Source: Periplaneta americana (lineage: Eukaryota > Arthropoda > Insecta > Blattodea > Blattidae). Taken from it: a stretch of 64,000 bases of DNA. Below are positions 6,471 through 42,795 of this stretch, piece by piece. The DNA lies in assembly GCF_040183065.1 (NCBI RefSeq), contig NC_091131.1, positions 101,309,330 through 101,373,329 of the forward strand. Reading direction: 5' to 3'. Every line of letters begins with the position of its first letter. Positions within the stretch are counted from its first letter, which is position 1. Made by a program: the position numbers and the translations under genes. The notes below the pieces were generated by a model that searched no databases, had not been told where the DNA came from, and saw only the letters and a list, made by a program, of their open reading frames with translations.

Positions 6471-6496
6471 TTTCGTTACTATAGTAACATCATCAG
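6471..6496 (-). ncRNA. Hammerhead-ribozyme-like motif, left arm
   Basis: Minus strand: CTGATGA, one extra T, stem II GTTAC with loop TATA and GTAAC, then GAAA. The following AACGTT is a palindromic stem III. Stem I can form between ATGTAT before the core and GTACAT after it. Relative to the right-arm copy (7874), stem II differs by a T-to-C plus A-to-G change that keeps the pair. Confidence 0.55.
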
Positions 6497-7029
6497 ATAC
6501 ATGTAATTTTCAATATGGTAACCTCATTTGTGTGGCATTTGACTGTAATATAGTAGAATGGAATTGTTAACACAATATTAAAGGTGAATGTTAAAAGACT
6601 TAAATTAAATTAAACAATTAAAAACATTATAAAAGACACACCATGAGCCTTCACTTACTAGTAAAGCCAACATTTTTGTGTTTTATATTCATAATTAAAA
6701 TCGTGCAATATTGTTGTATAAATCATTAACTTTATAAATATGGTTATATGCGAGTGAAAACTCGTTCACAATTTTTTCTTTGTTTGTATTATGTAGAACA
6801 ATATGCATTTTATATAAACTACATTACATGCCGTACCATAACTGTAATCAGTAATGTTTGTATTGTGTACATGTTTATATGATGTGAAGTTTTTGTTTGA
6901 TAATGCCTTTCCATACATAAAATTAATTTCTGTTTTGATCCACATAAATAGAAATATAATCTATGATCATGTACATGCAGATTCCTTATTTATTACATTT
7001 ATAACTGCATTAAATAAGTTCAATTTCAT

Positions 7030-7373
7030 AATACTAATAAAACATACCTCTCCTTTTATTTTAGATAATGCTGAATTCACTTTGCAACTTAAATGCACGA
7101 TAATATCGTTGTGAACCACTTAAAAACAACAACGTAAGTTTCATTTGCACATCATTGAACACATTTCAATCTACATAACATACTTACAATAATTTTCATT
7201 TTAGATAACCATCGACAAAGTTCTACAATATACACCACTACTTCCAAATTATGTATTATAACATCATTATAAGAACTACGTAAAACTAACCACGTAAGTC
7301 TACCGCACAATCAGTCTACTTAGACATCTCTCTAACAATTAATATATCTCTACAATAATCTTTCTCTTTTTAG
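7030..7373 (+). other. Regularly spaced splice-site-like signals in the palindrome core
   Basis: Three acceptors (TTTTAG ending at 7064, 7204 and 7373) alternate with two donors (CGTAAGT, G at 7134 and 7294). They define putative introns of 71 and 80 nt and exon-like pieces of 69 and 89 nt. A branch-like TACTAAT precedes the first acceptor (about 7031). The pieces share similar starts (AGATAA, AGATAA, AGATTA), so the array may have arisen by tandem duplication. No continuous reading frame joins them. Confidence 0.4.
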
Positions 7374-7873
7374 ATTATATTTCAACAATAGTTCCACAGT
7401 TCGCATCATCAAATTACACAAGACTGGAACACGAGAACAACTACATATATTGAAATTTTATCTATCAAACGAAAACTTCACATTACATAAAATACGTAAA
7501 CAATACAAACATCAATTACTGATTACAGGTGCGGCATGTAATAATTATAGTCTATATAAAATGCAAATTGTTCTACATGATACAAACAAAGAAAAAATTG
7601 TGAACGAGTTTTCATTCACATATAACCATATAAAGTTAATGATTCATACAACAATATTACAAGATTTTAATTATGAACATAAAACACAAAAATGTTGGCT
7701 TTACTAGTAAGTGAAGGCTCGTAGTGTCTCTTTTACATTGTTTTTATTATTTTTTTTTTACTTAATTTAAGTCTTTTAACATTCACATTTAATATTGTAT
7801 TAACAATTCCACTCTACTATATTACAGTTAAATTCCACACAAATGAGGTTATCATATTGAAAATTACATGTAT

Positions 7874-7899
7874 CTGATGATGTCACAGTAGTGACGAAA
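7874..7899 (+). ncRNA. Hammerhead-ribozyme-like motif, right arm
   Basis: CTGATGA, extra T, stem II GTCAC/loop AGTA/GTGAC, GAAA, then palindromic AACGTT and C (a UUC cleavage triplet). Stem I can pair TGTAT before the core with ATACA after the C. All invariant core positions of the hammerhead are present. The unpaired T between the core and stem II is unusual. Confidence 0.6.
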
Positions 7900-7982
7900 A
7901 CGTTCATACAAATTGTAAAATATGTAATACAAAGAGTTCAACTCTATGATATAGGCTATGATAAACGTCAATGGCGGAAATG

Positions 7983-9045
7983 CAGGGTGTAAGAGGTATA
8001 AGTGCCGTCCTTTTCACAATCGTCGGGGACGGTCTATAAGGATCAAAAAATGTCCACACAACATAGGATCAAAACTTGATAATTTTCCAGGAAAAATATT
8101 TTTCTTATTTTATTTGCGTTACACTGCTTATATCATTAGTAAAATTACGAAAACAATATCAGTAGGTATATCTAGCAAAGAGTTAATATTAGTTTAAATA
8201 AATATGTGTGTGTTCTATGTTTTCGTGAAATTAAATAAAAATGCATGTTAATATTTTGGCGTGAGACGTGGCAACGTGTTCAGCAGGCATCATTCTGCAC
8301 AGACTTAAGTACGAGTCAGCTTAGTTCAAGCTCCCTGTCCATAGTTCTACTGCAGAGCGGATGACAGTTCAGTACAGGGTATTCGATAAACAATTTATAA
8401 TGTCATTTACAGTTTAGGAATATCATATGTTATTAATTTATTGAGAAATTCGTCGTAATTCAAGTGAGGCAAGAAGGATGTACCGTCAACGTTTTCCTCA
8501 AAGAAGATTACATGTCATAATCGGCGAAATTTTGTAGCAGTTTCTCAACGATTTTTAGAAACTAGGAGTCTCACACAACCAGAAATTTGTTTTAAAATGA
8601 TACTTCTTTATGGAAGTGCGAGAGATCAAAATTTTGCATTAGAAAAAAAAGTTCGTGAGATTTTGTGCAGAAAACATTATTATTTATTTTTTAGACGTAC
8701 AATAAAAAAGAAGCAATACTGTTACATAAAATGTAAACTTACCATAATGTTCTATTAAAGAGATTGAAAGTTTGTATTTGCTGCTCGTTTTATGTAAACA
8801 ACAGTGTCCTGGTCCGCTCCTGCATTAGAAGAGAGCATCTGTTGTGTACCAGTATGTCTGTACCCCTTGAGCTGTACTGTGTAAAACCCCCTCCTCCCAT
8901 CCAGCAACGTTGCAAAATGTCTAATATTGTAAACTTTAATAATTAGTTAAATATTGCAATTAGAAAATTTGTAAGGACATTTTTCTTCCTTATGACATGA
9001 ATAATCATCAGTTAAAATAATGACACTTATACCCCTTACACCCTG
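7983..9045 (+). mobile_element. Non-autonomous TIR element with DUF4817-like fragment
   Basis: The left end CAGGGTGTAAGAGGTATAAG mirrors the right end, whose complement reads CAGGGTGTAAGGGGTATAAG. A TA follows the right end. The element is 1063 bp, too short for a full transposase, and carries only the N-terminal fragment at 8400-8590. It is probably an internally deleted Tc1/mariner-superfamily element. Confidence 0.7.
8400..8590 (+). pseudogene. Transposase N-terminal helix-turn-helix remnant
   Basis: The frame starts MSFTV and continues with MLLIY and a decayed arginine-rich stretch to ARRMYRQRFPQRR. It then shifts frame to AVSQRFLETRSLTQP. The 'R.YR.RFP.RR...F..V.Q.L.ETGS' pattern is that of the DUF4817 DNA-binding domain at the start of some insect mariner-like transposases. 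The DDE catalytic part is absent. Confidence 0.6.
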
Positions 9046-10071
9046 TATAACAAAACATTTATTTATATGGAACTAATCAAATCAAACACTAAATTCTAGA
9101 TCACAAAGACAAAAGCCAATCATATCTGCGTAAAAATAATTTCTTGTCTCTATACTATATTAGTATTGCAGAGTGAAATTACACGACAAAAAGGTAAATG
9201 TATTTACAACGAAATATTCACCTTTGTAGATCGAAAAGGAACAAAACTGGCTAAGCATTCAAAACAACAGAAGGACACTGGCACTATCTTTAGTATCCTG
9301 AAAATATTCTTTCTAAACAGTACCGACACGAAAACGAAAAGAAGGGAATGGACATGAAATTTCAACAGCAACTAAATTTAAAGAATTATGTTTTAAATTT
9401 CAGTTAAGACTTGGTTGGAATTTTGAAGAACAAACATGATGATGAATCAATTTCCTCTAGATAATCACGTTCCATTTTCGTTCGATATCATTTATCCATG
9501 TACTAATATTGAAGTTGAAGGGGAGGAAGAAGAAAAGTATTCTCTCTGCAATCGAATAATTAGTTTCAGGGGCTCCACAACTGATTTGACAGTAACGCTG
9601 TTAACTGCATCAAGTAATAACGACGAGTTCAGGAAAATTGGAACGATGCAAAGTCGGAAATAAAGGCAAGGTTTTATAACCACAAATCAAGACTAATGAT
9701 TCTTAGATTCTACGGGACAATAATCAGTATAGAAGTGAAAAAGAACATCAAGAAGACTAGTCTATTTTGTACATGGCTGACTGACTGAACTAGAGATTTG
9801 CTTTTCAAAGTGAACTGGCACAGAAATAGAAACTACTGTTTACCCTATTTACAAAGCTATTGTTAAACTATAGTATATAGCAAATTTGATTTTTTTTCCT
9901 CAATATTACCAATAGAACTGGCGTGGTATCACCATTCAGATAAAAGAAAGTCTATCAACTATTGCAGGCTACAATATTTTCTCATCATATTGTTACCAAT
10001 AGTCTCTGACATTACTGATTTCGTAAGTGGTAGGCCCTACTGGTATATAAGGAAACAAATTACAGTAGCAG
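9046..10071. other. No gene recognised
   Basis: AT-rich sequence. Open frames at 9166-9357 and 9436-9663 (the latter with a run of glutamates) match nothing known to me and overlap antisense frames of similar length. Confidence 0.4.
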
Positions 10072-10095
10072 CACAGTCTAATATACTAGACTGTG
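10072..10095. repeat. 24-bp palindrome with 7-bp flanking repeat
   Basis: CACAGTCTA joined to its near-complement TAGACTGTG, bounded on both sides by GTAGCAG (10065-10071 and 10096-10102). The ends match those of the MITE at 46711-46870. It looks like two terminal repeats fused after loss of the whole interior. Confidence 0.5.
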
Positions 10096-10383
10096 GTAGC
10101 AGAGTGATTGGAAATGATCTAAATACTTTGTAGACGCGAGTGATTGAAATTACTAAATACATATAATTTCTACGTAAGAAAATATTATTTCATACATTTA
10201 AGTGGAATATTTAAAGTGAACGGATCGTACAATAGTTTATTTTTCTATGCCAGTAACATTTTCCCACCTTCCTCTTAAAATGTAATATCTACAGTCCGGA
10301 TTTTTAGGTGATTGACAAACCTCGCTAAATAACGATCTCATGTCACCTCACCCCACGACATAAAGGCAGCTCAACTTTTATCC

Positions 10384-10887
10384 TTGTCTTGGGTATTTCC
10401 TGCGACTGGAGGAGGTATGTTTTGTTATAATAAGCGGTGGCTTTACCTTTCCAATATTCATTTAACTGCTTCGCAACGTGTCTTACAAATTTATAAAATT
10501 TCGTGTAAAGAGGTGGAGTATATCGACTGCAACTTTGGCTGGATTTCAGAAAGAATTGAAAAGTTGAAAACTATCATACTTTCACTTATGAAATTAATAG
10601 ACATCATTTGTAACACAAAAAATACACTCAAAATTGTCCGTGGAACTGCAGGTAATAAAGTTGTGAAAAAATTCCAAGCATTTCTTGAAATAAATTGGGG
10701 TTACGCAAGTTTATTTACTGTTAGCCAGATCCTCAGCCGAGAATCGTGGAACCATCCAGAATTCATTGCTGTCAGCCACATTAATTTATTTAAATATGTA
10801 CCAGTAACCGCGATGTCGAGAGGTCGTTTTCGGCATATAAGAACACACTTTCCAATCGTCGCACAGTGTGCAATAACGGAAAACTAG
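10384..10887 (+). pseudogene. hAT transposase C-terminal region
   Basis: A 167-codon open frame. The segment IERLKTIILSLMKLIDIIC-like, then NKVVKKFQAFLEINWG, then LFKYVPVTAMSRGRFRHIR resembles the end of hAT proteins of the CGGBP1-like type, where 'FKYAPVTSCDVERSFS.YK' is the dimerisation region. Here that motif has lost most key residues (SCDVERSF replaced by AMSRGRF). The frame has no N-terminal zinc finger or catalytic core. It is a relic despite being open. Confidence 0.6.
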
Positions 10888-11662
10888 CTGGACAAAATTA
10901 ATAACTTCTCTGCATTCCAATGGATTGTTATGAAACTTTGTACAGACATAAATAGCACATATTTTTTGCATACAAACTCTGACTACATTTGTGTACGAGG
11001 AACTACCCTTTATAGAGGATGGCTTTAGACTAAAATAATAACTTCTCTCCTATCTAACAGATTTTTGTGAAACAGTGTACGGAAGTTACAGAGAGAATAT
11101 ATTTTTTGTTTACACACTATATTTACAATTCCACAAGAGGAAGTACCCCTTTACAGAGAGAGCATTTACGCAAAATTAACTTCTCTCCTACAAAACAGAT
11201 TTTTATGAAACTTTGTACAGGAGTTACAGGTAGCATATATTTTTTGTACAAATTCTGATTACATCTGTATGCTATCTCTAGGCCTAATTGTACAAAGTTT
11301 CATAAAAATATATTATATAGGAGAGCAGTTATTAATTTTGTATAAATGCACCACTATAAAGGGTCAGTTTCTATTACGAAATATAAACAGACTTTCTAGA
11401 CAAAAAATAAAATATTCCACCTGTAACTTCTACCGTATATATAGTTTCATAAAACTCTGTTAGATAGGAGACCAGTTATTAACTTTGTTTAAATGCACCT
11501 GCTATAAAGGGGTAATTTTTCTTGTGTAAACGTAATCAGAATTTGTACACAAAACGTGTGTCACCTGTAAGGGATGTACAAAGTTTCATAACAATCCGTT
11601 GGAATGTAGAGACGTTATTAATTTTGTCCAGCTAGTGATTTGCGTTCTGATTCACTGTGCGT
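10859..11662. mobile_element. Nested palindromic element of six iterated units
   Basis: The ends are inverted: CTAGCTGGACAAAATTAATA at about 10886 against its complement ending near 11637, extended outward by CGCACAGTG and CACTGTGCG. Inside, units with AACTTCTCTC...ATGAAACTTTGTAC recur near 10886, 11036 and 11180. Their complements (GTACAAAGTTTCATAA...) recur near 11288, 11445 and 11577. Three forward and three reverse copies therefore form a near-symmetric array inside the hAT element. Confidence 0.7.
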
Positions 11663-12599
11663 TTGTTAAGCTTAGATAAAAATGTATCCAATGTATTTTT
11701 AACCTGATGTGAATAATTTTGCAGGCCTAAAACACTTGCAAGTAATTAAAAACTTCCTTATTCCATGATTCTTTTCTGCTGTTTAAGCCAAATATGGAAC
11801 AGTTACCGTATGCCCCATCACTGAAAAAAAATTAATTACTGATAAATGCGCAAAAACGCGCAAACTTTAAAACAGGGATTCAACACTCTAAATGATGCTG
11901 GATTAAATGGTAAAGAATTGTAACCGGACGTGATCGGATGTACTAAAATTCACATTATATTTGGAGAACGTTAAAAGAATATTTTTTTCAATTGTAATGT
12001 TTAAACCCTTCTGTAAGAAGAATAATACTTTACAAACTTGCAATTGAAGTTACATTAGTAAGAACGTACCTATCTGAACAGATTCCATGTCTCGCAACAC
12101 AATAAATCACTAACAATTGTCTCTTTTTCACGCATATAGTAACTTCTCTGTCTACGACTGAACATGAGCGAGAAGTATTAGGAAGAATTTATTGTTCATA
12201 TCCTTCTAAATATACCTTGTTCCTCACAAAACAGTAAAAGCTATTTCTCACAACATTCTCCAAATGTTAAAGAACATGAATCCATATTACCTATGCCTAA
12301 CTAAACAAGTCGAAATTTGATTTTTGTCCACCTAGATTGGAAAAATTGCACACTGTACGCCAATGGTACTTAACTCCTAAAATATGAAGAAATGTCTTGT
12401 GGCACATCGTACTTGATGCCTTTATTAACTTTAGAATCGCAACAAAAATTATATCGCGTGTGAGATTTGTATTAAATTAATCTTATTTATCTTTGCTTGA
12501 ATTTTTCAACTTTCTGTGAAATGTTTATATTACATATTATTATTTAGACATTTTTTGGATCAATATTACATAAAAATCCGGACTCTAGTAGTAATATCT

Positions 12600-13007
12600 A
12601 ATTGGTAATTACTTGCGCAGTTGTAAACCTATATGCGTATATATCAGTCAGTACTGGTTATGTCTACGGTACCTGTTTCTTTAACTGATACGTTCGATTG
12701 AGGGGTCCAGGCCAAAGCCGAAGATGCAGCTTCTCCTTGTGCCACACACCAATATCTCTTATACTGCTTCACAAGAGTCACATTTAGATGCTCTAGAATG
12801 AAGAAGAAAAACATCACTTAAATAATCGCTCGTAACAAGACCAATTATAATACTGAACATATTTTATATGTTAATTTATGCTACATTTCATTATCGTGTC
12901 TGCAGTGTTATATTCTGCTCCAAAACTTGATATAACTCACATATTTTATAGATATATTTGTGTATCTAATATAAAAGCTTTGTAAGTTACTGATCTTTTT
13001 AAATTGT
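12600..13007. other. No gene recognised
   Basis: A short moderately GC-rich stretch at 12690-12750, otherwise AT-rich. No repeat end or coding pattern seen. Confidence 0.4.
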
Positions 13008-13265
13008 TATGTTACGACGCTTTATCAACTGCTATGGTTAGGCTATCTAGCGCCTGAATGAGATGGAGGTGATAATGCCAGCGAAATGAGTTCAGGGTCC
13101 AGCGCCGAAAGTTACCCAGCATTTGCTCCTGATGGGCTGACGGAAAACCCCGGAAGAAACCTCAACCAGGTAATTTGTTCCAACCAGGATTTGAACTCGG
13201 ACCCGCTCGTTGCACAGTCAGGCTTGTTGTTACTCCATAGCGGCGGACATAAGTTACTCGTACAC
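13008..13265 (-). mobile_element. SINE (family A)
   Basis: Minus-strand copy: the tail at left (TTACGACGCTTTATCAACTG), the body AGTTACCCAGCATTTGCTC, and a decayed tRNA head at right near 13185-13240. More diverged than the copies at 19824 and 44690. Confidence 0.8.
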
Positions 13266-13739
13266 TAAAATTTTTAGTCCTTTATTGTTGTTACAAAGAT
13301 GATGATGTAATGATTGGCTTTCATTAGTGATTAGCGTTTTGCAAAGAGGTATAAAGAGTTTCAGTTTGCAAACAGTGCAGTTTCATACTCGGGAGGTCTG
13401 TTTCCAATCTGCAATTGCCAAAACCGAGAGTGAAAGCTATACAACGATGGAATATAGTGTTAGAAAATTTGCATTTTAGATGTTTAAATACCATAATCTT
13501 AATTTATCAATTTAACTTTGTAATAAATAAGGAAGTAAGAGACTGGCTACTGCCTTTTAGAGGATCGTAACCCGGTTGAATAAATGGACTTCCGCTATAT
13601 TACAATGCACGCCTTATATACGATGATTGTTCCAGTCTGACCTGTGGCACGGGTGTCATCCGTGAATCCGATGCTGACAAACAGGCCATCCTGTCTCAGA
13701 CCTGACACAGCCAGCTCCCTGATAAACTCCAGGACCTGA
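13266..13739. other. No gene recognised
   Basis: No supported feature. A region near 13620-13740 is GC-richer than its surroundings and leads into the SINE that follows, so it may be part of that repeat. Confidence 0.35.
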
Positions 13740-13995
13740 AGCACCAAGCCCTTAAATCCTACATCAGCATCGGAAACCTGCACTACTCTCCAAGACTTCG
13801 CCCCAGCTTATTTTTAACTATTGCAGATGATAAAGTGAAGAAGAGGTGAACAATGTTAGCAGGATGAAAGTGGGAATTGAGAGTACTCCGAGAGAAATAG
13901 TCTACAACGTCTGCTTTATTCACAACAAATACCATGACGACAAGGCCGAGGATCGAACCCAGACCACAGACACGGCACGAGAGATTATTATTTGA
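13740..13995 (-). mobile_element. SINE (family C)
   Basis: The B-box complement GAGGATCGAACCCAG at about 13948 marks a tRNA-like head on the minus strand. The body (AAGACTTCGCCCCAG, then GATGATAAAGTGAAGAAGAG, then TACAACGTCTGCTTTATTC) matches 27950-28135 and 30885-31075 in the duplicated segment and 53225-53490. Confidence 0.6.
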
Positions 13996-14873
13996 CATTT
14001 AAATTTCGTTTATTTTGATGAAGGCTTTCACCTCATGCCATTTTTGCTGTGGATTCCGACAATAGTGTATTTTGAAAGCACTTCCTTATTGAAAACGTTT
14101 GTTTTATTCTTACTGAAAGTTTTTCATTATTTCGTGTTAAAACTGGAAGAACGAAGTCATGTACAGATGGAAGTAAATGGAAATTTAAACATTCTGGCAG
14201 CATTAAATACAGGTTGAGTGACCATAATGCAAATTTTATGCCCGAGAGGGATCATAAGTAATAAACATAGAAACCTACGCCTGGAAACCCATTAGTTGCG
14301 AGTTATGACCAAAAATATGCTTCAATATTATGATAAGAACTCCTGTAAACCTTACTCAGAAACTTCAGTAGTGGACAGGTAATAATGCTTCCACGAACCG
14401 GAGACAAGCCAGCAATAGAAGCCAACATTTCGCTAGTGCGACAGGCATTCCAGCATGCCTGAATGCCGGACGTTTTCCTGTGATTACTGACTTCATTTAT
14501 TATATTTCAACAGTGAGGCCTTTCCGGACGTACTTAAGGCCCGCTCTTCTAGTCAAAAAAATATTAAGACGGTCATTGAAACATCTGTATATTAAAACTT
14601 AAAGCATGTGTCCCTATCAAAATACCACAATTAATTCTCAGAAAGTTATCAGTACTTTCCGTAGGCAGTCAATATCACTAAACTCAAATACAATTAAAAT
14701 ATCTTCACTAATCCCTACATCTGTTTTCTCCCAAGAATTTTTCATTGTCCATTACGTGCAATACAACTCTCATCTTTAAACTGTGATTTTCAATTAGACT
14801 TCAGTTTATGAATTTAAAAATTTCTATGTAAAGATTAATTTTTGGTCCTAGAGAATTTATCTGTTACAGGAAC
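13996..14873. other. No gene recognised
   Basis: Short open frame at 14035-14217 without recognisable features. No terminal repeats or tRNA-like boxes seen. Confidence 0.4.
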
Positions 14874-15034
14874 AATGGTTATTAGAGGAGAAAAATTCGT
14901 TCCGGCGTCGGGGATCGAACCCGGGTACTTAGTTCTACAGCGTAGCTCAGTGCTTAGAGGACTTGGTACGTAGAACCAAATACCCGGGTTCAATCCCTAA
15001 CGCCGGAGCGAATTTTTCTTCTCTAATAACCATT
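14874..15034. repeat. Inverted dimer of a tRNA-like sequence
   Basis: Two arms of about 62 nt (GGTTATTAGAGGAGAAAAAT at left, its near-complement at right) enclose a ~35-nt centre. The right half holds an A-box-like GTAGCTCAGTGCTTAGAGG and a B-box GGGTTCAATCCC on the plus strand. The left half holds the complementary B-box GGGATCGAACCC. Each strand could therefore present a pol III-type promoter. No acceptor stem or anticodon arm of a functional tRNA is evident. Confidence 0.65.
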
Positions 15035-15799: not shown

Positions 15800-15912
15800 C
15801 TGCGTAGTGTAGACGTGATGGCGTCGCTATAGGAAGCTTTTCTCCGACATTGTCAGTCAGTAGCTAGAAACATTTTTTTTACGTTAACACGTGTGTATAT
15901 TAGCCTCTTAAG

Positions 15913-16436: not shown

Positions 16437-16438
<2 letters not shown>

Positions 16439-28135: not shown

Positions 28136-28188
28136 ACGGACAAGATCATTGTTAACATTATTAAATATATGGCATTCAAGTCTATGTA

Positions 28189-28461
28189 GGGTAAAGGTTG
28201 GTAATATTGTGACACTAATAATATTACGATAGTACTTTCTGAGAATTTTATATATATACATATATATATATTTATTTTATTATTTTTTTTACTGAGCGCG
28301 AGAAGGATCGGTTTTGTGCAGAAACTTGTCCATGAACATCCTCTTAATATGTTGACGCAAAAAACTGATCTTCCTCTCGCTCAGTAAAATTGGAAAAAAA
28401 AATTCTCAAAAAGTACTATCGTAATATTATTAGTATCACAATATTACCAATCTTTACCCTT
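28189..28461. mobile_element. Palindromic MITE in copy A
   Basis: Arms GGGTAAAGGTTGGTAATATT and its complement, with a 44-nt loop (28316-28359) between GGATCGGTTTT and AAAAACTGATC. Inserted after TA in CTATGTA. The relative in copy B (31101-31337) sits about 20 bp away and has the loop inverted. Confidence 0.82.
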
Positions 28462-28647
28462 TATACAGTAATGCATTAGCAAGTCAGAGCGGATTTCAAA
28501 TATAATATAAACCAACTCGTAGGAAGATTTGTTACAAAAAATGAACACTCATGGTTGGGAAGTTACGCGTAAAAATGCATAGTTTATGTCATAAATGTAA
28601 GAAGAAATGTAATAAATTAAAACTTGCTCCAATGCACTAAATAAAGT

Positions 28648-29007
28648 TTGACTATAATTATGTGTGTGTATTCCGCCTTTGCTTATCATACAATATGAAT
28701 GAATTAATTAGTCATATTTTCTCATTAACGTTTTCGGTACGTAAATTGTACCATCTTCAGATGTTTGTATATGATGCTAATTGTTAACCAAGCCTGTGGG
28801 TGCATGTATCTGGACTTAAATGGTCAGTGTTAACAATTAGCATCATATACAAACATCTGAAGATGGTACAATTTACGTACCGAAAACGTTAATGAGAAAA
28901 TATGACTAATTAATTCATTCATATTGTATGATAAGCAAAGGCGGAATACACACACATAATTATAGTCAAATTGTGACAGCTTATCGGTATATCTTCAACA
29001 TGAAATT
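28648..29007 (+). mobile_element. Hairpin element with perfect 142-bp arms and 13-bp duplication
   Basis: Arms 28647-28788 and 28829-28970 appear identical in complement over the stretches compared, around a 40-nt loop, followed by a 37-nt tail. The target duplication CACTAAATAAAGT lies at 28635-28647 and 29008-29020. Copy B shows the empty site (GCTAAATAAACAAAGTG near 31552). The long duplication points to a retroelement mechanism. Each arm has a hammerhead-like motif, suggesting a Penelope-like terminal unit. Confidence 0.88.
28857..28885 (+). ncRNA. Hammerhead-like motif (mirror copy at 28732-28760 on minus)
   Basis: CTGAAGA, extra T, stem II GGTAC/loop AATTTAC/GTACC, GAAA, palindromic AACGTT and A (UUA triplet). 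Stem I: CAT before the core with ATG after the A. Identical in both arms. Confidence 0.55.
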
Positions 29008-29201
29008 CACTAAATAAAGTGTTAAATTGTTACTCGAGTTCCCAGGTTGCCAGCGTGCTTTACTTGCTATAATTCATCCGAGCTCTTCAAATTAAGTAAT
29101 TTCTTCTATCTTTTGAAATGATACGTCAACACAACACGGTGTTTCCCACGGTTCCCATCCACATCTTTTGTTGCCGAACTCTTCATACCATTGTAGTAGA
29201 G

Positions 29202-33222: not shown

Positions 33223-33269
33223 CTTATGTCAGCATTGAAGCTTTAAAATGTGAAAAAAATCAAGAGTTA

Positions 33270-33345: not shown

Positions 33346-33382
33346 AATGTATAATGCATAACAAGTAGTTGAACTATACAAA

Positions 33383-33885
33383 AGAATATACAATACATAG
33401 CAACTACCAAAACACTACACACAGCAGATTAATTTCATTTACAGGCTGAACAATTTATCAGCCGAGCCATACAAAATTATGCAATATACATAATGAACCG
33501 TAAGTAATGTTATTCATTTCAGGGAGTTCTTCTTTGAGATATTTCAAACAAAAAAGCGAAATATAATTTCGCTTTTTTCCCTTCCTTTTCGAGATAAAAA
33601 TAGTTTTATATGAAATATTTCATTGCGTGTTTTAGGAAAGACATTGATTTAATTTCCAATATGTTCAGTGAATTTAAGAGAGCAGCGTATTATTCAACGA
33701 ATTTTAATTTTGTCCTTTAAATATGCAGAAATTTGATCATAACAAGTGTAGCATTGTAAAATTCTTTTTTTGGAACGAAAAGTTATATTTATTGAGATTA
33801 AATTTCTGTAAATTTAAAGGACAAAACTAAAATTCTTTCAATCATTTCTTAGAATTATTCTGGATTCGAAGCTGTCAAAACATTG
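33383..33885 (+). repeat. Duplicated AT-rich segment, copy 1
   Basis: Collinear with 34655-35022: AGCAACTACCAAAACACTAC, AACAATTTATCAGCC, GAGATATTTCAAACAAAA and TTTATATGAAATATTTCATT in both. Copy 1 has about 130 bp extra (33640-33775), part of which pairs inversely (TTTTGTCCTTTAAAT with AAATTTAAAGGACAAAA), so a small inverted-repeat element may have been inserted or lost. Confidence 0.8.
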
Positions 33886-33944
33886 TGTCAAAAAAATATC
33901 TCATTAAATCATATTATTCTTTCTTTCATAATCTCTTATCTTAT

Positions 33945-34080
33945 GGTATCCATATTTGGGCAATCGAGCAAACGTGGACAAAATACTTATTTTGCAGAAA
34001 AAGATCCTAAGAATTATGAATAGCTCGCTCATCTTATGACGCTCATTGTCGAACCTTGTTTCGAAATCTTAAAATACTTA
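33945..34080 (+). pseudogene. Jockey-like LINE fragment
   Basis: In shifting frames: YGIHIW, then ANVDKILILQKKILRIMNSS, matching the 'W.NSS....LQKKA.RIM' region seen intact at 38560-38625. About 130 bp only. Confidence 0.55.
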
Positions 34081-34176
34081 CTGTTATGTAGGCCTACCTA
34101 TACATAACAGTAAGTATTATAAGATTGGGGAAAATCTCGGTAAAAACCCAACCAAGTAATAAATCAAAGAATATAC

Positions 34177-34643
34177 TTCGGAAAACGTATTATTTGTCTT
34201 TCTTGTGTTTAATTTTATATTACCTTGTTAACATGTTTCAGCCTGCTATTGGCCATCATCAGAACTGGTTGTTGCTGGTCTTGATGCCTTTTGTTTTGTT
34301 TCCTGTGGGGGAGTGTTTGTGTAGTGTAATGTGGAGTCGAAGAGTGTGTGTGTTCTGAAATTGAGTTGTGTGTTGAGAATTTCATTTGGATGTGGTGTTG
34401 AAATTCTCAACACACAACTCAATTTCAGAACACACACACTCTTCGACTCCACATTACACTACACAAACACAACCCCAAAGGAAACAAAACAAAAGGCGCC
34501 AAGGCCAGCAACAACCAGTTCTGATGATGGCCAATAGCAGGCTGAAACATGTTAACAAGGTAATATAAATTGTAACACAAGAAAAACAAATAATACGTTT
34601 TCCGAAGTGATATAGTGTTAAAAGTTGTGTAATCAAGATGTAT
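34177..34643. mobile_element. Hairpin element with 210-bp arms and 14-nt loop
   Basis: Arms 34175-34384 and 34399-34608 are near-perfect complements. AAAGAATATAC flanks it at 34166-34176 and 34644-34654. Each arm carries the hammerhead-like motif. Frames on opposite strands repeat the same peptides (KSVCVLKLSCVLRIS) because of symmetry; they are not genes. Proposed Penelope-like terminal unit. Confidence 0.88.
34521..34548 (+). ncRNA. Hammerhead-like motif (mirror copy at 34236-34262 on minus)
   Basis: CTGATGA, extra T, stem II GGCC/loop AATAGCA/GGCT (closing G-U pair), GAAAC, palindromic ACATGT then T. Stem I: GTT before the core with AAC after it. Confidence 0.5.
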
Positions 34644-34654
34644 AAAGAATATAC

Positions 34655-35022
34655 ATTACATAGCAACTATACCAAAACACTATATACAGCAAATTAATTC
34701 AATTTACAGGCCTGAACAATTTATCAGCCCAGCTATACAAAATTATGCAATATACATGGTGTACAGTAAATAATGTCATTAATTTCAAGGAGTTATCTTT
34801 GAGATATTTCAAACAAAAGAGCTAAATATAATTTTGCTCTTTTTTGCTTCCTTTTCGAGATAAAAATTGTTTTATATGAAATATTTCATTGCGTGTTTTG
34901 TAAAATTCTTTTTCGGAATGAAAAGTTATATTTGTTCGAATCAAATTTCTGCACATTTAAAGGACAAAACTAAAATTCTTTCAATCATTTCTTAAAATTA
35001 TTCTGGATTCAAAGCTGTCCTG
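34655..35022 (+). repeat. Duplicated AT-rich segment, copy 2
   Basis: Counterpart of 33383-33885 without the ~130-bp inverted-repeat-bearing piece. The hairpin element at 34177-34643 lies directly before it. Confidence 0.8.
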
Positions 35023-35149
35023 AGTAGGCCATATATCCATATATATCTACATCACATATGTCCTCTGATTGAGGTTCTGGCTGATATGTACATTTATTAT
35101 CAGGCAGTACATCTTCACTTGACGATATGTGTCAGAGGAAGAACCGAAG

Positions 35150-36492
35150 CCATGAATTTAAAAAAAGCACAGGTCCATTTATCAAACATTTGAGATAAAC
35201 AGTTTTTTTTTTTTTTGTAAACTATATCTTAAACCTATTAAAGATATTTCTTTCATTTTTTTCTATGTATAGATATTATAATGACTTCGTAACTTGCAAA
35301 GTATTACATCAAATCAATGAAGAGCTTAAGTCCAAAAGGATGATAAAAATTGTGTTTTTGTGCTGTTTTGGAAATCACTTGAACTCTTTTTGACTATGAA
35401 ATGTTAACTTTTGTTTTATTTAATAAAAAAATTTAATTTTTGTGATATCATATTTACAAAGATTTCAAAAGATACTTGACACTAAAAACGTTCACTCTGA
35501 GTTCCAGGCTTCACTTTCTGAGGCAGCATTATCATTGCCTGAGTTTCCATAATGAAATAGACGCTCAAATTATGGCCGATGCAGTGCATCAATGGAAGAT
35601 CTATACTTCAAAATGTCTCTTGCTTTCGCAGGTTTCAAACTAATTTCACTGTTGTAAGCTTTCTTCAAAGCTGTCAAATTAGAAACACTTTTTTGTTTGA
35701 ATCTAGTCCACTAGATGATGTGCTAACAGTCAGATCACTGTTGCGACACTGAATAATCTTGTATGATGTTACTTTCTACTGTTCATGTTTCGACAGTGAC
35801 ACAGGTTCTTTCACTTTTGCAAGGAGGTTTTGTAATCCATAATCATGGATTGATCGACGTGAACAATGTTTATATTACTTGCACTCTTCTCCATTATATC
35901 GATCCATTACTGAGGAATGTGTACAGTATCCTGCTTCCTCTTCTTTAACTCTATTCGAGCAAAATTCCTGTCGCAGGGTATATAGAAGTGAACTTTTGTA
36001 GGATAAACGTGTCTCATGTGTTGAAAACGTCCACTTTCAAATAATTATTGAATATGTAAGTGATATTTGAGAACTGTGTTATTTCGGTTTGAGCTGCACA
36101 TGCCACAGTGAAAAAATACAACTTTTTCACACTCGGGGCAACGTAATGTTTGATAAAATGATCCAGAAAAGAAACAGTTTTCGCGGGAATACAAAGTAAC
36201 AGCTGATGCCGAGACAGTTCTGCTCAGTGAGAGCGGGTAGCGGTATGTATACTTGTGTTGTTTTGGAAGTCAGTTGCTCTCACTACAAGTATCTGCATTC
36301 AAAGTCAGAACAACATTTATTCATGCCTTTGTGATGTTTTGATTATCATCATTCAAGAAACATGTTTGAAAATGAGAATTTTGTGCTGTTTTGAATGTCA
36401 TGTGAAAGCTTATGACAAAACGATTCCACTGACACCCATAACTCATATAGCATCAAAATGTGGACTTGTGCTGTTTTGGAATTCATGACTTC
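35150..36492 (-). mobile_element. TIR DNA transposon inserted in repeat F
   Basis: Left CCGAAGCCATGAATTTAAAA; right complement TGAAGTCATGAATTCCAAAA, both then AGCACA(G/A)GTCC. A motif GTGCTGTTTTGGAA-like recurs near 35360, 36255, 36375 and 36465. It contains a minus-strand coding relic. Target duplication not resolved. Confidence 0.7.
35800..36210 (-). pseudogene. DUF7869-like protein fragment of a transposon
   Basis: Minus-strand frames read CPECEKVVFFHCG, then ESGRFQHMRHVYPTKVHFYI, PCDRNFARIELKKRKQDTVH and VHVDQSMIMDYKTS. The 'H.YP..GHS.MPCDR.F..IE...RK.D.V..P..W' order belongs to a protein family common in insect genomes, usually annotated as DUF7869. I recall it from memory and could not check it. 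The catalytic role is not established. Several stops. Confidence 0.5.
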
Positions 36493-36673
36493 AATTATTG
36501 TTTGTATGCAAGTGTGACTAGTGTAATAGCCTATGTAGCTACTCGGCAATGTATGGAATGGTGGGGGAAAGGAACTGGTCACCCTACCCTATTATCGCTT
36601 GGCCTAGTTGCCTCATAAGTGGTGCCCTCTTGGTATCAATTGAGAGGTTCAGACCTGTCTTTAATATACCATA

Positions 36674-37597
36674 CAAGGTGATGCACGAGGAAAGGTAAAA
36701 AATTTAGGATGTGAATTCTGAAGTCATTCTGAGTGAAAAAGTTCATATGAATATAGGTCCGTTTTTGAACGATTACGGAGATATGGCTCTTCGATTTCAC
36801 AAAAACTTCTGAGATTCCATTGTACTAACTCGCATTTAGAGACAGAGAACGAACAAATTTAAAGTTTATATTCACGTATGAATACATACCTAATACTCTA
36901 GAAGTCGGGGTCGATGTTTTCGCACATTTTCAAGGGTACCTCCTTCTGCTTCTATGCACTGTTGTGCTCGAGCGTGAATCGCGCTCATCGCTCGGGAGAG
37001 TTGCACGTGGCTGTCTTTATGCTGCATCTGGTCGATTAGTGCCTCTCTCGTTTCCCCGTTCCTTTTCTATACCAAGTCTTTCATCCAACCCCATAGACAG
37101 TAAATACAATTCGATATGGTACCCTTCTGTTCGCAAAGCGTCATTCGTATTCAGAGATGGCACACAAGCAACTTCCATCGCACAAACCATAAACATACAC
37201 AACATCGGCGTATTCTGCAGTCGAAAATTTATAAGGCATCTTGAAAAACACAACTTAACACTTCCGATAACTGTACCTGTACAACTACTGTACTGTAGGT
37301 AGCTGACTGAACTGCTGTGAACCGATAAGTGATAGCGTATTTGTTGTGACATTTGTAATGCCCCACCACCCGGTTTGTTTCTCTTCTCTTATCTGCATCG
37401 CTCACAATGCGACCTTGTCTCACGTCAGCAGCATATGGTAACGTCTGATTCACATTGGGGCGAGATGTTTTACCAAAAAAATGCATCTAGCTCCGCCATC
37501 ATTCAAAAACGGACCTATGTTCATATGAACTTTTTCACCCGAAATGGCCTAAGATATCGTATCCTAAATGTTTTACATTTCCTCGTGAATCACCATG
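36674..37597 (-). mobile_element. DUF4817-type mariner-like element, internally deleted
   Basis: Long inverted ends (~110 bp): CAAGGTGATGCACGAGGAAA at left and complement CATGGTGATTCACGAGGAAA at right, both continuing to AAAAAGTTCATATGAA and TAGGTCCGTTTTTGAA. TA flanks both sides. 924 bp; carries a fused N- and C-terminal transposase relic. Confidence 0.82.
36900..37265 (-). pseudogene. Transposase relic: helix-turn-helix joined to C-terminal tail
   Basis: Minus strand starts MPYKFSTAEYADVVYVYGLC, then CAISEYE and (one frame over) RCFANRRVPYRIVFTVYG: a DUF4817 DNA-binding domain. Without any DDE core it passes to QLSRAMSAIHARAQQCIEAE and GGTLENV, the typical C-terminal end of these transposases ('R...C.EA.GG..E'). 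The internal deletion removed roughly 250 residues. Confidence 0.7.
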
Positions 37598-37605
37598 TAT
37601 ATATA

Positions 37606-38054
37606 ATTGCCTCATATTCACGAAGATGAACTTAAATAACTGATTTACAGCGTCAACAACATAATTACTCTATCAGGTATAACCATTTAATAGTCACTTC
37701 TAATGTAAGGTTGACTGAAAGAAAAAAATAGTTCAATATTATTGCAATTGATATGTTTTATAGATTGCCGAGCAATGCCCATTCCACTAACTCAAAGATA
37801 TTCAAATCAGTTTAATAAAAATTGGCTTACTGCCAATTCATTTTACAACATTAATGAGTTCTTTAATTCAACACTCAACATTGTACTTTAATGTGTTTTA
37901 TTTATGCATGTATTGATTGTGACTTTGCCTATAACTTCAGTAAACTGTAGTTGTTCGACAATGAAACTGATTAATTGCAAGTACGACGAACTTTGTTTTG
38001 TTACCACAATGCTTGAAAATAAAAACTGAACAAAGTTACTTATTCAGAATTTAG
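37606..38054. other. No gene recognised
   Basis: AT-rich, no recognised feature. Confidence 0.4.
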
Positions 38055-38069
38055 AAATATTAAGCTGGA

Positions 38070-38991
38070 GTTACCCAGGAGTCAATTTTAGGTCCATTGT
38101 TGTTTCTAATTTATATTAATGATTTAGACTTAACCATAAACAATTTATCCCATGTAATTTTCTTTGCAGATGATACAAGTGTGATTATTTCAAGCAAACA
38201 ATAGATAATTTTATAAACACTTCCAATACAGTGCTGAATCTAATGAATGAATGGTTCCATGCAAATAAACTAGCACTTAATATTGATAAAACCAGTGCAG
38301 TCAAATTTAGTATACACAATAGTGCTCAGATTTCTACAGTATTCGATTAAATGGAACTCATCTCAAAGAATCTATAAGCACAAAGTTTCTTGGTTTAGAG
38401 TTGGATAATCACTTGAATTGGAAAACGCACATAGAATGTATTACTTCTAAATTGAGCTCTCCCTGTTATGCATTAAGATCCTTATCTGCTACTGGTGATA
38501 TAAACTTACTTAAAATGTCATACTTTGCATATTTTCACTTTGTAATGAAATATGGATTAATATTCTGGGATAACTCGTCTGAAGCTAAACACATTTTTGT
38601 TTTACAAAAGAAAGCTATAAGAATAATGGCTGATGTGCATAAAAGGACATCATGTAAAAATATTTTCCAAAATTTAGGAATCTTGATCTTACCTTGTGAA
38701 TACATTCTTTACCTAATGATGATGCATATTAAAAACCAAGATACATTTAGTACTAATCGAGACATTCATCATTTTAATACAAGACATAAATCAGATCTTC
38801 ATCTACTCTATCCTAGTCTAAGCTGTTATGAAAAAGGAGTTCGCTATTCATATATTACAGTCTTCAATGCACTGCCTAATTACCTTAAAGATTTGAAGGA
38901 CCATGAGAAAAGGTTTAGAAAAGAATTAACCAAATTTCTACATACTCATACCTTCTACACAACTGTTGAATTGTTTTTGCTTGTGAATTGA
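38070..38991 (+). pseudogene. Reverse transcriptase, palm end and thumb (Jockey-like)
   Basis: Early frame: [20 protein letters not shown], then [12 protein letters not shown] with the FADD catalytic pair (about 38162). Frameshifts follow near 38200 and 38350. From 38401 a clean 196-codon frame runs: DNHLNWKTHIECI, LRSLSATGDINLLKMSYFAY, LIFWDNSSEAKHIFVLQKKA, FNTRHKSDLHL, VFNALPNYLKDLKDHEKRF. This is the usual end of Jockey-clade ORF2. No finger domain or endonuclease remains, so it is inactive. Confidence 0.9.
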
Positions 38992-39089
38992 ATTATTCTA
39001 ATTAATTTGAAAGTATAATCTTATATAGCTCATCTAAAATATGTTTTTATATTGACTTAATCTGTTTACTACGTACAGTACTGTACTGT

Positions 39090-40030
39090 ATATTTTTGTT
39101 TAGCTTAACTGATGAATTGTATATGCTGTAAATTGAATAGTAGTCTGTATAGCTCAACTGATGAATTGTTTAAGCTTATAAATTGAGTTAATCTACTTGA
39201 TATTAATTGTACAATTTTGTATAGCTTAACGAAAATATGTTTGTAAATTGAATTAATTTGTTTACTATGTATTGTATATGTTTGTATAGTTTGGCTGATA
39301 AATTGTAGGCCTATATGCTTTTAAAATGAATAGTAGTCTGTATAGCTCTACTGATGAATATTGTATATGCTGTAAATTGAATAGTAGTCTGTATAGCTCA
39401 ATTGATGAATTGTATATGCTGTAAATTGAATAGTAGTCTGTATAATTCAACTGATGAATTGTTTATGACTATAAATTGAATTAATCTACTTGACATGAAT
39501 TTTACAAATTTGTATAGCTTAACGAAAGTATGCTTGTAATTGAATTAATCTGTTTACTTTGTATTGTGTATGTTTGTATAGTTTGGCTGATGAATTGTAT
39601 ATGCTTTAGATTGAATAGTAATCTGTATAGCTTAACTCAGGGGTCGTCAGCACAGAGCATGCTGGAGCTAATCTCTCTTACCCGCGGAAAACGCAGTGCA
39701 CTAGGGTGCACTCAGTAGCTGCTAGCGGGTATGCTCTCTATCTCTCCCTGTTGCACGACAGAGCACACGGGACAGCACCACATACCCTTTGCACATTTCA
39801 GCGAGTGCTGACGACCACTGGCTTAACTGATTAATTGTTTATGCTTGTAATTTGAAGTAATTTGCATGATATGTATTACCAATTTCTGTATATCTCAACT
39901 GATTGAAATGTTTATGCCTTTAAATTTAATTAACATACTTGCTATGTATTATATTTTATAGCTCAACTGATAAATAATCGTTTGGGTTTGTAAATTTAAT
40001 AATCAGATTGGCTGTGTACTGTATATTTTA
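39090..40030. repeat. Minisatellite-like 3' UTR of the LINE
   Basis: Units of about 50-70 bp built on CTGATGAATTGTATATGCTG and AATTGAATAGTAGTCTGTAT, with alternating longer variants (GTTTACT-TGTATTG). At least eight units to 39630, weaker beyond. Superunits of about 290 bp seem to repeat. Confidence 0.85.
39638..39820. mobile_element. hAT MITE in LINE 3' UTR
   Basis: 183 bp. Ends CAGGGGTCGTCAGCAC and complement CAGTGGTCGTCAGCAC. Exact 8-bp duplication GCTTAACT at 39630-39637 and 39821-39828. Non-coding. Confidence 0.93.
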
Positions 40031-40039
40031 GTAGAGCCA

Positions 40040-40300
40040 TTGATGTAGCTCGTAGCTCAGTCGGCAGACTCGCTGGCCCCGGTTTGGTCTGATTGATTGG
40101 TTTCTTCCGAGGTTTTCTCCAGCCATGGGACATGCCGGATGGTTTATAGCGAGTCCTCGGCCTCACTTCACTTGGTTTGGTCTGATTACCTGGTTGGGAT
40201 TTTTCCGAGGTTTTCCCCAACCATAAGGCAAATGCCAGGTAATCTTTTGGCGAATCCTTGGTCTCACCTCATCTCACTACATCTCGCCAAAAAATTGTAA
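40040..40300 (+). mobile_element. SINE (family B) with duplicated body
   Basis: Head GTAGCTCGTAGCTCAGTCGG. The body block (GGTTTGGTCTGATT...TTCCGAGGTTTTCTCC) occurs twice in tandem (about 40080-40165 and 40170-40250), then the tail CTCACCTCATCTCACTACAT. B-box is degraded. Confidence 0.85.
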
Positions 40301-40435
40301 AAGAATTGTAGAAAATTGTAAAAATGTGAAAATTGTAAAAATGTGTAAAATTGTAATTGTAATCTTGTAAAAATTTGACTTGTTCCACATCTTAAAGCTT
40401 CATTGCTAATGTAAGATCTATGGAATGAAAAAAAA

Positions 40436-40647
40436 AATGGAAATGAAACTTCATTAATTTGGCTTGAAATTATGAGTCGAGTTTGTTAAGAGTTTTATTT
40501 AGTTTATTTAGTGGCCATAAGGAGTCGGTCCTAGATTCTTACTCTCAACCACGACTTAACAGTCTATAGTAAACAGTACTTGTACTTATACTGTAACTGT
40601 AATAAAATAAATATGTGAGTGATATTATAAATTACACATTAATATTA
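40436..40647. other. No gene recognised
   Basis: AT-rich interval between the LINE end and repeat F. Confidence 0.4.
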
Positions 40648-40945
40648 CTGTTGTTGTTTAGTCAACTGTCCAAAGACAGATTCAACCTCACAAGTGATGC
40701 CAAGAAGGCACCACTTATGAGGCAACTAGGCCAGGAGATAATGGAGTAGGGTGCCAGTTCCTTTGCCTCTCCATTACATACATCGCTGACTAGCTACATA
40801 TTACACTAGTCAAACTTCAGATATATACAAACAATTTTATTGTTCTTCCTCAGACACATATTGTCAAGTGAGATGTACTGGCTTGATAATAGATATAATA
40901 TATCAGCCAGAACCTCAATCATAGGATAATATCACTGTAAAGAGT
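40648..40945 (+). repeat. Dispersed repeat F, copy 2
   Basis: Blocks GTCCAAAGACAGATTCAACC, ATGAGGCAACTAGGCCAG and CAGCCAGAACCTCAATCATA in the same order as 26166-26440. Confidence 0.8.
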
Positions 40946-41098
40946 GAAATTAAATTTCTAGTAGTTGCGGTGTGTCATGTCTAGTAAACGTTCCAAATCA
41001 AATTACTTTTCACAATCATAAAAAAACTCGGTAATATGTGTGATAATGTGTTAGATTCGAGCTCGCTAAGCAGCGGTACCAGTATCTAATTGAGGACC

Positions 41099-41196
41099 GT
41101 TTTTGCAAACCTTGCTAACTGCAAAATTTGCAAAATTGAAATTTTGGTGGATTCGTTAACATAAAGCAGGTCTCTACACGATGTTAAAGTTATCTT

Positions 41197-41227
<31 letters not shown>

Positions 41228-41666
41228 TATCCTGTTGTTCCTAGGTGGAACATAGGGCAGCAGTAAAGTTCCTCCAGCATACTCTGTCGCCAGCCATCTG
41301 TTTCACCTCTTTCCAGCTTTTCCCACGTCTCTCTACTTCCTCCTCTATTGATCGTTTCCATGTTTTTCTAGGCCGTCCTCTCTTCCTTACTCCTTGTGGA
41401 TTCCGGTCAATTGCAGTCTTCTCAATAGCTCCATCTGGCTTTCTCAGCGTGTGGCCTATCCAATTCCATTTTCTTTGTTTTATTTGGTAACATATTTGTG
41501 ATTGGTTAGTAAAGTTATCTTAGTAAAATTGAATTATTTCTCTTCATTATAGTGTGTCAAAGTGTGATGGTTGCACCTATAACCTATTTCTCTTCATTCA
41601 GTTTTTTGTCTCTCCTGTAAAATTTAGTTTTTTCAGTTAGCAAGTTTTGCAAAATCGGTCCTCAAT
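41099..41666. mobile_element. TA-flanked TIR element split by a LINE
   Basis: Left ATTGAGGACCGTTTTTGCAA, right complement ATTGAGGACCGATTTTGCAA, both then ACCTTGCTAACTG/AACTTGCTAACTG. TA at 41097-41098 and 41667-41668. Removing the LINE insertion leaves about 240 bp, a Tc1/mariner-type MITE. Confidence 0.85.
41197..41509 (-). pseudogene. LINE 3' end (family 3) with 12-bp duplication
   Basis: Minus strand reads WNWIGHTLRKPDGAIEKTAI, PQGVRKRGRPRKTWKRSIEE and GDRVCWRNFTAALCST, then ends in (GAA)n. TAAAGTTATCTT flanks it at 41185-41196 and 41510-41521. This is the C-terminal tail of an RTE/BovB-like or related reverse transcriptase. Confidence 0.82.
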
Positions 41667-41889
41667 TACAAAGTGAAACAGAAGAGAATGAAAAATGTTC
41701 AATAGTATGCCAAGAAGAATAGAATCATAATAAAAGAAGAATGTCACAGTGACGTTAGTAAATATGATCAGGATACCTGCAGTTTCAATAGATAAGCCAG
41801 TTGATACACGTTCACATAAAGACTTCGAATGTGATATAAGGCAAGAACAAATACAATATATTACGATTTCAGATATTCCATCAACACCA

Positions 41890-42795
41890 ACTGATGGACC
41901 AAAACAACCAGCGGGCGATGATGAAAACTCTCTTTGACCGGGCCAAATGGGTCTCCTACCCACAACATCTAAAACAGGAAATTGGCCACCTCATGTCTAC
42001 ACTGGAGGCCAATGGCTACTCTACAGCAAAAATTAAAAGAGCCTTAAAACCAAGACGGCAAACACCACCTGATCTGAGACAAGGCCAAACCAAGAGAGGC
42101 ATGGTTTTTCTCCCGTACTACAGACAAGTTACAGACCGGATCAGCAAGATATTACAACAACACAAAGTGGAGACAATTTTCACTCCTACTAGGCAGACTC
42201 GTAACTGCTTACGGTCTGTCAAGGACAAACGTGACTGACTTTCATCAGTTGCAGTATGCAGAATCCCGTGTTCCTGTGGGTCAGTGTACATAGGTACAAC
42301 ACAGCGTAGCTTCAAGATCCAAATCACCGAGCATAGAAGGAACTACCGTCTAGGTCCACGTGGACAAGTCAGCTGTAGCCGAGCATGCTTTTAATGATGG
42401 GGATCACAACATCAGGTTCCAGGACACCGACATCCTAAGCAGTACGCCAAACTTCTATGCCAGGTTACATTGGGAAGCTATTGAAATTCATAAACACAAA
42501 AACAACTTTAACCGTAAGGAGGAAGGACTCAAGGTCAACAAAGCTTGGTATCCGGCCCTCAGAAGCACACACATCAAACCCTTTCTCCGACAATTAGACA
42601 CTATGACAAACAATCAGAACACCGAAGCCACTGGTGCAGAGCGCGGCGACAACGACAGGGAACAACAGTCCCACATCTTAAATATCGACATGCTATCAGT
42701 CTCAATGCCAGGTCCTGATACACACAGCAGATCTCTCCACACACGTGTACCGCGCCACTGAAGATATCCACCAGAGTAGTGGACGAAACATTTGG
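41890..42795 (+). pseudogene. Penelope-like element: linker and GIY-YIG endonuclease
   Basis: The first frame has NQRAMMKTLFDRAKWVSYP, SNGYS-like (EANGYSTAKIKRALKPRR) and VFLPYYRQVTDRISKILQQH, ending KPTR-like and RSVKDKRD. After a frameshift near 42236 the endonuclease starts: RIPCSCGSVYIGTTQRSFK, then ITEHRRNYRLG and, after another shift, KSAVAEHAFNDGDHNIRFQD, EAIEIHKHKNNFNRKEEGLK. SCGSVYIG and the R..EH..N..L.....SAVAEH order are those of Penelope-type GIY-YIG domains. The reverse transcriptase is missing (5'-truncated). The TGA stop lies within the hammerhead-like motif at 42758. Confidence 0.9.
42758..42789 (+). ncRNA. Hammerhead-like motif at end of Penelope-like gene
   Basis: CTGAAGA, T, then A-TCCAC/loop CAGAGTA/GTGGA-C (closing pair degraded to A-C), GAAAC, and ATTTGG. 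Stem I: CCA before with TGG after. It overlaps the stop codon (TGA at 42759-42761). Confidence 0.5.

Follow-up and report, generated by a model that had tools for sequence, protein, structure and literature searches.

Hammerhead-like motifs in the window

Seven hammerhead-ribozyme-like motifs are found in a 64,000-nt stretch of the cockroach genome (Periplaneta americana, GCF_040183065.1, contig NC_091131.1, positions 101,309,330 to 101,373,329 of the forward strand), which is called the window below and whose first base is position 1. Six of them lie in the arms of three palindromic elements, named E1, E2 and E3, and the seventh lies 3' of the relic of a Penelope-like element (PLE). Very probably, the motifs are minimal type I hammerheads of endonuclease-bearing PLEs, and E1, E2 and E3 are insertions of two pseudo-long terminal repeats (pLTRs) placed head to head without an open reading frame (ORF).

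In a pattern check of the window, CTGANGA...GAAA was present at all seven places and on the strands listed in the initial annotation; only two of the ends given there lie one base too far, beyond GAAA. The CUGANGA and GAAA core is shared by all seven motifs. For the comparison with chance, a hammerhead rule was coded from the general consensus: CTGANGA, 0 or 1 inserted base, a stem II of at least 4 pairs, and GAAA. The full rule also demands 6 palindromic nt starting at A15.1, with A, C or T next (the UH site), and at least 3 bp in stem I. The shorter rule gives seven matches in the window, namely the six hairpin-borne motifs and 18108 (+), the only other match, in which the palindrome is absent. 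The full rule finds six (6496-, 7874+, 28760-, 28857+, 34262- and 34521+). In these six, one T follows CTGANGA, stem II is 4–5 bp long and leads into GAAA, the stem III palindrome is AACGTT or ACATGT followed by A, C or T, and stem I has 3–6 bp in a fixed register. The motif at 42758 departs from the rule by an A.C mismatch at the first stem II pair, adjoining the core; its stem II has 5 bp (TCCAC/GTGGA) and its stem III palindrome is degraded.

First-order Markov simulation of 2000 windows of 64 kb gave on average 0.249 motifs per window, with a maximum of 3 and six windows holding at least 3. Palindrome and H together are found in 9 motifs across all simulated windows, and when a stem I of at least 3 bp is added, the number falls to 0. 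A smaller simulation of 60 windows gave 0.13 motifs per window, and the palindrome in none. The six motifs count as three independent families, because the left and right arms of an element are copies. One could still explain them as chance matches in AT-rich DNA next to coincidental inverted repeats, and the lack of an Rfam hammerhead match, as well as of a full minimum-energy hammerhead in the isolated E1–E3 motifs, speaks for this. However, the full rule found nothing in 2000 simulated windows against six sites in three families here, which makes this explanation vanishingly improbable. The motifs are real, as the initial annotation held, with six passing the full rule and the seventh decayed, and their anatomy supports a type I hammerhead-like assignment. 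The motif pattern was also looked for in viral contigs; it occurs in 40 stretches, none of which (0 of 40) has a stem II of at least 4 bp, and these were set aside as chance.

Architecture of the palindromic elements

E2 (28648..28970) is a head-to-head palindromic pair of putative pLTRs, with arms at 28648-28788 and 28829-28970, a 40-nt spacer and complete arm identity (141 of 141 aligned bases). Hammerhead-like cores are located in its left arm (28732..28760, minus strand) and right arm (28857..28885, plus strand), both with a stem I of 3 bp. Flank comparison shows a 13-bp target-site duplication (TSD), CACTAAATAAAGT, with copies at 28635..28647 and 29008..29020 (+), and a one-sided tail of 37 nt (28971..29007, +) lies between the right arm and the TSD. 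E3 (34177..34607) has the same layout with a 14-nt spacer and an arm identity of 198/208 aligned bases. Its cores are at 34236..34262 (-) and 34521..34547 (+), again with 3-bp stems I, its 11-bp TSD, AAAGAATATAC, is at 34166..34176 and 34644..34654 (+, flank comparison), and its tail of 36 nt (34608..34643, +) has a first base that may belong to the arm. In both elements the left arm abuts the TSD, and the inverted repeat enters it by 1 base in E2 and by 2 bases in E3, while the right arm is separated from it by 37 and 36 nt. In a comparison with 400 randomly chosen flank pairs of about this size, 3 had at least 11 bp in common. Comparison of the E2 tail with the E3 tail revealed an 8-nt patch only.

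Several other repeats surround these two elements. Just left of E2, a second inverted-repeat structure (28183-28465) has arms of 67 nt (93%) and 33 nt (85% complementarity), with zero matches to the hammerhead rule. E3 is flanked by direct repeats (33531-33876 and 34796-35019) of 48, 60 and 118 nt, which are 88–95% identical and about 1.1–1.3 kb apart, and a near-perfect palindrome with 26-nt arms (96%) is located shortly left of it (34065-34126). The centre of E3 (34324-34459) matches the plant microRNA precursor models MIR5998 and MIR862 (E 1e-13 to 7e-12, below gathering scores), probably only through its long-hairpin shape. A short frame of E3, MANSRLKHVNKVI (34527-34568), includes AAG|GTAATA, which we take to resemble a 5' splice site.

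E1 (6397..7979) is larger. Its inverted arms (about 6397-6905 and 7465-7979) enclose a centre of about 560 nt and agree at 449 of 493 aligned bases. The left core (6471..6496, -) has a stem II of GTTAC/GTAAC and a 6-bp stem I, and the right core (7874..7899, +) has GTCAC/GTGAC and a 5-bp stem I, so that stem II differs by a two-sided change, which is one event. E1 sits inside another repeat: within 6367-9075 it splits one terminal inverted repeat of a different element, the other copy of which (9011-9075) keeps the empty site. When the flanks of E1 are joined and compared with this empty site, 3 extra bases remain and a clear duplication is absent.

Generally, the motifs face outward in all three elements, as in head-to-head pLTRs with their 3' sides outward; a tail of 30–40 nt at one end is found in two of three (E2 and E3), and so is a TSD of variable length (13 and 11 bp). 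By coordinates, the distance from the ATG within the motif to the arm end is 94/100 nt in E1, 107/108 nt in E2 and 80/81 nt in E3, and to the tail end 145 nt in E2 and 117 nt in E3. For the Penelope of Adineta vaga, inverted pLTRs in head-to-head order are described, one of which may carry a 31-bp tail; TSDs measure 8–10 bp or are missing, and solo pLTRs occur (PMC3846280). One inverted pair there carries the 31-bp tail on one of its two pLTRs together with a 9-bp TSD (PMC3846280). The optional PLE tail of 30–40 bp has been explained by two internal start sites of reverse transcriptase (RT), and the PLE protein cuts and extends both target strands (PMC11167929). The geometry of E2 and E3 fits such inverted pLTR insertions combined with two RT start sites (PMC3846280, PMC11167929), and the distances to the arm and tail ends of E1–E3 are of the same order as the position of the Anolis RT start region, 111–118 nt into the ORF (PMC11167929).

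Long inverted arms, and in E1 ends that are flush on both sides, are also what foldback or MITE-type (miniature inverted-repeat transposable element) DNA transposons with captured hammerhead-like motifs would show. Yet the one-sided tails of 36–37 nt in E2 and E3, TSDs of 13 and 11 bp instead of a fixed length, and the recurrence of one motif, 80–108 nt inward of the outer arm ends, in all three unrelated elements argue against such transposons, which we consider quite improbable.

The PLE relic and its motif

In the stretch 41918..42584 (+), the C-terminus of a PLE protein survives in decayed form, interrupted by a frameshift and a stop; it takes in the GIY-YIG region and continues beyond it. 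Used as a query, the stretch matched PLE proteins: of 83 scored candidates, 43 reach E<=1e-3 (best value 1.4e-75), and the best named match is from Periplaneta americana. Five Periplaneta entries show 55–76% identity over 49–87% of the query, and a sixth shows 75% over 14%. Among the 43 matches, 7 contain PF01541 (GIY-YIG) and 3 contain PF00078 (RT). The relic itself has no Pfam match, no match to PDB by sequence, and no direct repeat longer than 8 bp in its flanks.

The decayed hammerhead-like core at 42758..42788 (+) follows 3' of this relic and reads ATA where the others read ATG. Translated in the ATG frame, it gives (I)STRVVDETF, and a six-residue spacing is kept. Its position 3' of a PLE relic of the GIY-YIG type supports the connection between the motif and PLEs that was proposed initially. 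The motif probably belongs to the decayed PLE, in a pLTR and ORF start that would follow the ORF of the relic as the next copy of a tandem.

When PLE proteins were aligned to genome and viral contigs in a search for DNA upstream of a PLE ORF, one contig (L041) was found, which is motif-free, and the viral contigs gave none. L041 is binned as a Pseudogulbenkiania metagenome-assembled genome, and its decayed PLE coding region (2353-3551) is likely a eukaryotic contamination. A PLE-like protein in the protein set, P0062, carries the name Escherichia coli.

The extra T and the start codon

Six motifs read GATG at the extra T, and the seventh (42758) reads GATA. In an Anolis PLE, the hammerhead overlaps the start codon (PMC11167929). 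By analogy, the best reading of the extra T in the window makes it the U of an AUG within the core. The AUG would then overlap the core at the junction of pLTR and ORF, with its A serving as A9, its U as the unpaired extra U and its G as G10.1. The proposal that the extra T defines a new hammerhead subtype is probably not right, and is better replaced by this start-codon reading, although a structural role of the U is possible. Vertebrate PLE-like sequences with an extra A at the same place belong to the background and were not used as evidence.

If the core overlaps a start codon, PLE proteins may keep its trace at the N-terminus. We therefore looked for M...E[IMTNKSR] with a spacing of 4–9 within the first 90 residues of 234 fetched proteins, in the frame that has GAA as a codon. 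The protein set was made from the 43 relic matches, the best 120 of 1379 matches and the best 120 of 2198 matches. A stem II of at least 5 bp, with the G of ATG at one end and the base preceding GAAA at the other, is allowed in 6 of 110 placements. In all six, M and E(T/S) are separated by exactly six residues; the proteins are P0162 (Anolis carolinensis), P0164, P0165, P0177, P0187 and P0188.

Evidence weighing against a PLE origin

A number of results weigh against the PLE reading of motifs and elements, and they are gathered here. On the side of the N-terminus, six-residue spacing with E(T/S) occurs in 10 cases, four of which (P0042, P0093, P0117 and P0185) allow 1–2 bp only. The test itself is modest: 5 of 28 M...ET cases compare with a shuffle mean of 1.71, and this count was reached in 5 of 300 shuffles. 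The pattern is absent in 45 of 52 proteins of at least 740 aa, and among the fetched proteins the peptide of the 42758 motif has no significant match, the best phmmer E being 0.11 (P0162).

As to the ribozyme, the hammerhead models of Rfam release 15, run on the whole window with gathering and with relaxed thresholds, gave no match up to E=10. Separate runs on 121-nt stretches round the right-arm motifs of E2 and E1 gave no hammerhead match up to E=10 either, and E3 and 42758 were covered by the whole-window run. The initial annotation had named model scores at background level as a sign against its own reading, and in that respect this outcome counts against it. PLE motifs are described as minimal variants without helix III or loop-loop contacts (PMC7761336). 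For this reason the Rfam miss is understandable, and recognition by Rfam was not treated as defining.

Minimum-energy folding was applied to five isolated stretches (E1 left, E1 right, E2 right, E3 right and 42758) and to their self-dimers. A complete hammerhead is absent from the folds of the isolated E1, E2 and E3 stretches, and none of the five self-dimer folds is in the double-hammerhead register. Stem II appears in three of the five isolated folds (E1 right, E2 and 42758), and stems I and II appear together in 42758 only (1 of 5; GCCA/TGGT and TCCAC/GTGGA). A covariance model was not built, since MAFFT alignments of the motifs put the stems in wrong places.

The elements themselves also contribute to this side. 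E1 has no clear TSD, the longest word common to its flanks being 7 nt, and it has no tail, its ends being flush and symmetric. By blastn (E<=0.01), the arms of E1, E2 and E3 match neither one another nor the relic. No ORF for RT or GIY-YIG is found in E1–E3, the PLE protein match in the window being limited to the relic, and E1–E3 are therefore filed as PLE-derived and not as PLEs. The frame from the ATG closes after 3, 9 and 13 codons in E1, E2 and E3, respectively; because of this early end, the ATG in these elements would be a relic or have another role.

Since the arms match nothing that was compared, the PLE origin of E1–E3 is argued from architecture and motif and not from homology. With no mutual similarity, each of the three is possibly the one-off product of a different PLE. 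From their sequences, the hairpins resemble products of repeated insertion by different PLEs more than members of a single family that spreads. The idea that such hairpins are PLE terminal units thus holds, with outward motifs in three of three and TSD with one-sided tail in two of three, but their spread without coding capacity, which was part of the same idea, is a possibility that the mutual dissimilarity of E1–E3 makes unlikely.

How head-to-head insertions may form

E1–E3 would arise when two pLTRs are laid down head to head with no ORF. Most likely, both target strands would be cut by a PLE protein supplied in trans, which would also prime reverse transcription of PLE RNA at each of the two ends. 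Reverse transcription would begin at the known internal start sites, the first giving a flush end and the second a tail, with a one-sided tail and a TSD as the result. The simplest account appears to be two-ended priming that uses a different start site for each end; the main alternative for the priming step would be self-priming with an antisense template (PMC3846280). The two-sided stem II change of E1 hints weakly, being one event, that each end may come from a different RNA.

The ribozyme may simply be carried along, because it adjoins the template start. It is probably a passenger and needless for insertion, as suggested by Anolis catalytic mutants that still insert in vitro (PMC11167929). 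In hairpin transcripts it is probably masked: the predicted whole-strand minimum-energy folds of E2 and E3 are long hairpins that bury the motif (-241.8 and -351.6 kcal/mol), and the value for the whole E1 strand is -659.8 kcal/mol. A tandem dimer within one RNA is unavailable to E1–E3 because the copies are inverted. Self-cleavage of any of the copies is a putative activity.

Another possibility is that the hairpins form self-spreading non-autonomous families, in which hairpin RNA is repeatedly reverse transcribed by PLE enzymes, perhaps with the ribozymes acting as two-molecule dimers. E2, a complete TSD-bounded unit with identical arms, would agree with this, and the palindromic stem III would allow intermolecular double hammerheads, which a study cited in PMC6466107 and PMC7761336 reports for PLE motifs. 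Against it, the three elements have three unrelated sequences, and the predicted self-dimers are not in hammerhead register. Furthermore, the tails end at +145 and +117 nt, whereas for the Anolis PLE the template had to include the initial 172 nt of the ORF (PMC11167929). Such families are therefore unlikely. A specific form, in which the palindromic, ORF-less pLTR pairs act as stable mobile units whose RNA is freed by a stem III-paired intermolecular double hammerhead and reused in trans by PLE enzymes, is somewhat more doubtful still; if it were true, these pairs would be the hairpin, non-circular counterpart of retrozymes.

Under the preferred reading, insertion of pLTR pairs by different PLEs, the window offers compact natural test cases for head-to-head insertion, E2 above all with its identical arms, clear TSD and tail. 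They bear on the choice, as the PLE head-to-head route, between two-ended target priming and the antisense-template self-priming proposed in PMC3846280. Moreover, a simple structural rule can detect hammerhead motifs of the PLE type that Rfam misses.

Other features of the window

Two tRNA-like matches lie on the minus strand at 5703-5774 and 44840-44912 (31.6 and 31.9 bits, against a gathering score of 29), and are possibly tRNA-derived short interspersed nuclear elements (SINEs). The sequence near 40100 presumably has the look of a cockroach SINE, which was not used as evidence. On the minus strand at 55159-55587, a fragment of a DDE_1 transposase is found (PF03184, E 7.5e-07).

Comparison with known systems

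The component parts of this find are already in print, and it is mostly ordinary. Minimal type I hammerheads of PLEs were reportedly described by Cervera and De la Pena (2014) and by Lunse et al. (2017), as cited in PMC7761336, PMC6466107 and PMC11167929. In the literature covered, which did not extend to these two, no report of ORF-less, hammerhead-bearing palindromic pLTR pairs was found, and their absence from print is not claimed.

The motifs of the window resemble the minimal type I PLE hammerheads in the open stem I, the very short or palindromic stem III, the location in the pLTR and a putative capacity for dimers (PMC7761336, PMC6466107, PMC11167929). They differ from those described there in that six of the seven copies stand in inverted ORF-less pairs, with no tandem dimer in one RNA.

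Metazoan retrozymes, small non-autonomous elements that move via ribozyme-made RNA circles, share with E1–E3 the type I hammerhead-like motif, the lack of coding sequence, small size, low GC and TSDs longer than 4 bp (PMC7229834). However, published retrozymes consist of direct tandem repeats of roughly 150–450 bp with canonical type I hammerheads (PMC7229834), whereas the copies here are inverted, and one transcript would contain one sense and one antisense motif, with no double cut to a monomer. That E1–E3 are animal retrozymes is thus very improbable, well below the foldback explanation.

The Poseidon PLE PAc of Anolis carolinensis places its hammerhead over the start codon, as is proposed here at stem II; its two internal RT start sites explain the tail, and its protein cuts and extends both target strands (PMC11167929). 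Unlike the copies here, PAc is arranged in tandem repeats, and its hammerhead cut only with protein added, while catalytic mutants still inserted (PMC11167929). The inverted pLTRs of Adineta vaga are similar to E1–E3 in the head-to-head order, the optional one-sided tail, the presence of TSDs or none and the junction palindromes (PMC3846280). In contrast, the Adineta pairs in that source keep an ORF, part of an ORF or captured DNA, where E2 and E3 have only spacers of 40 and 14 nt.

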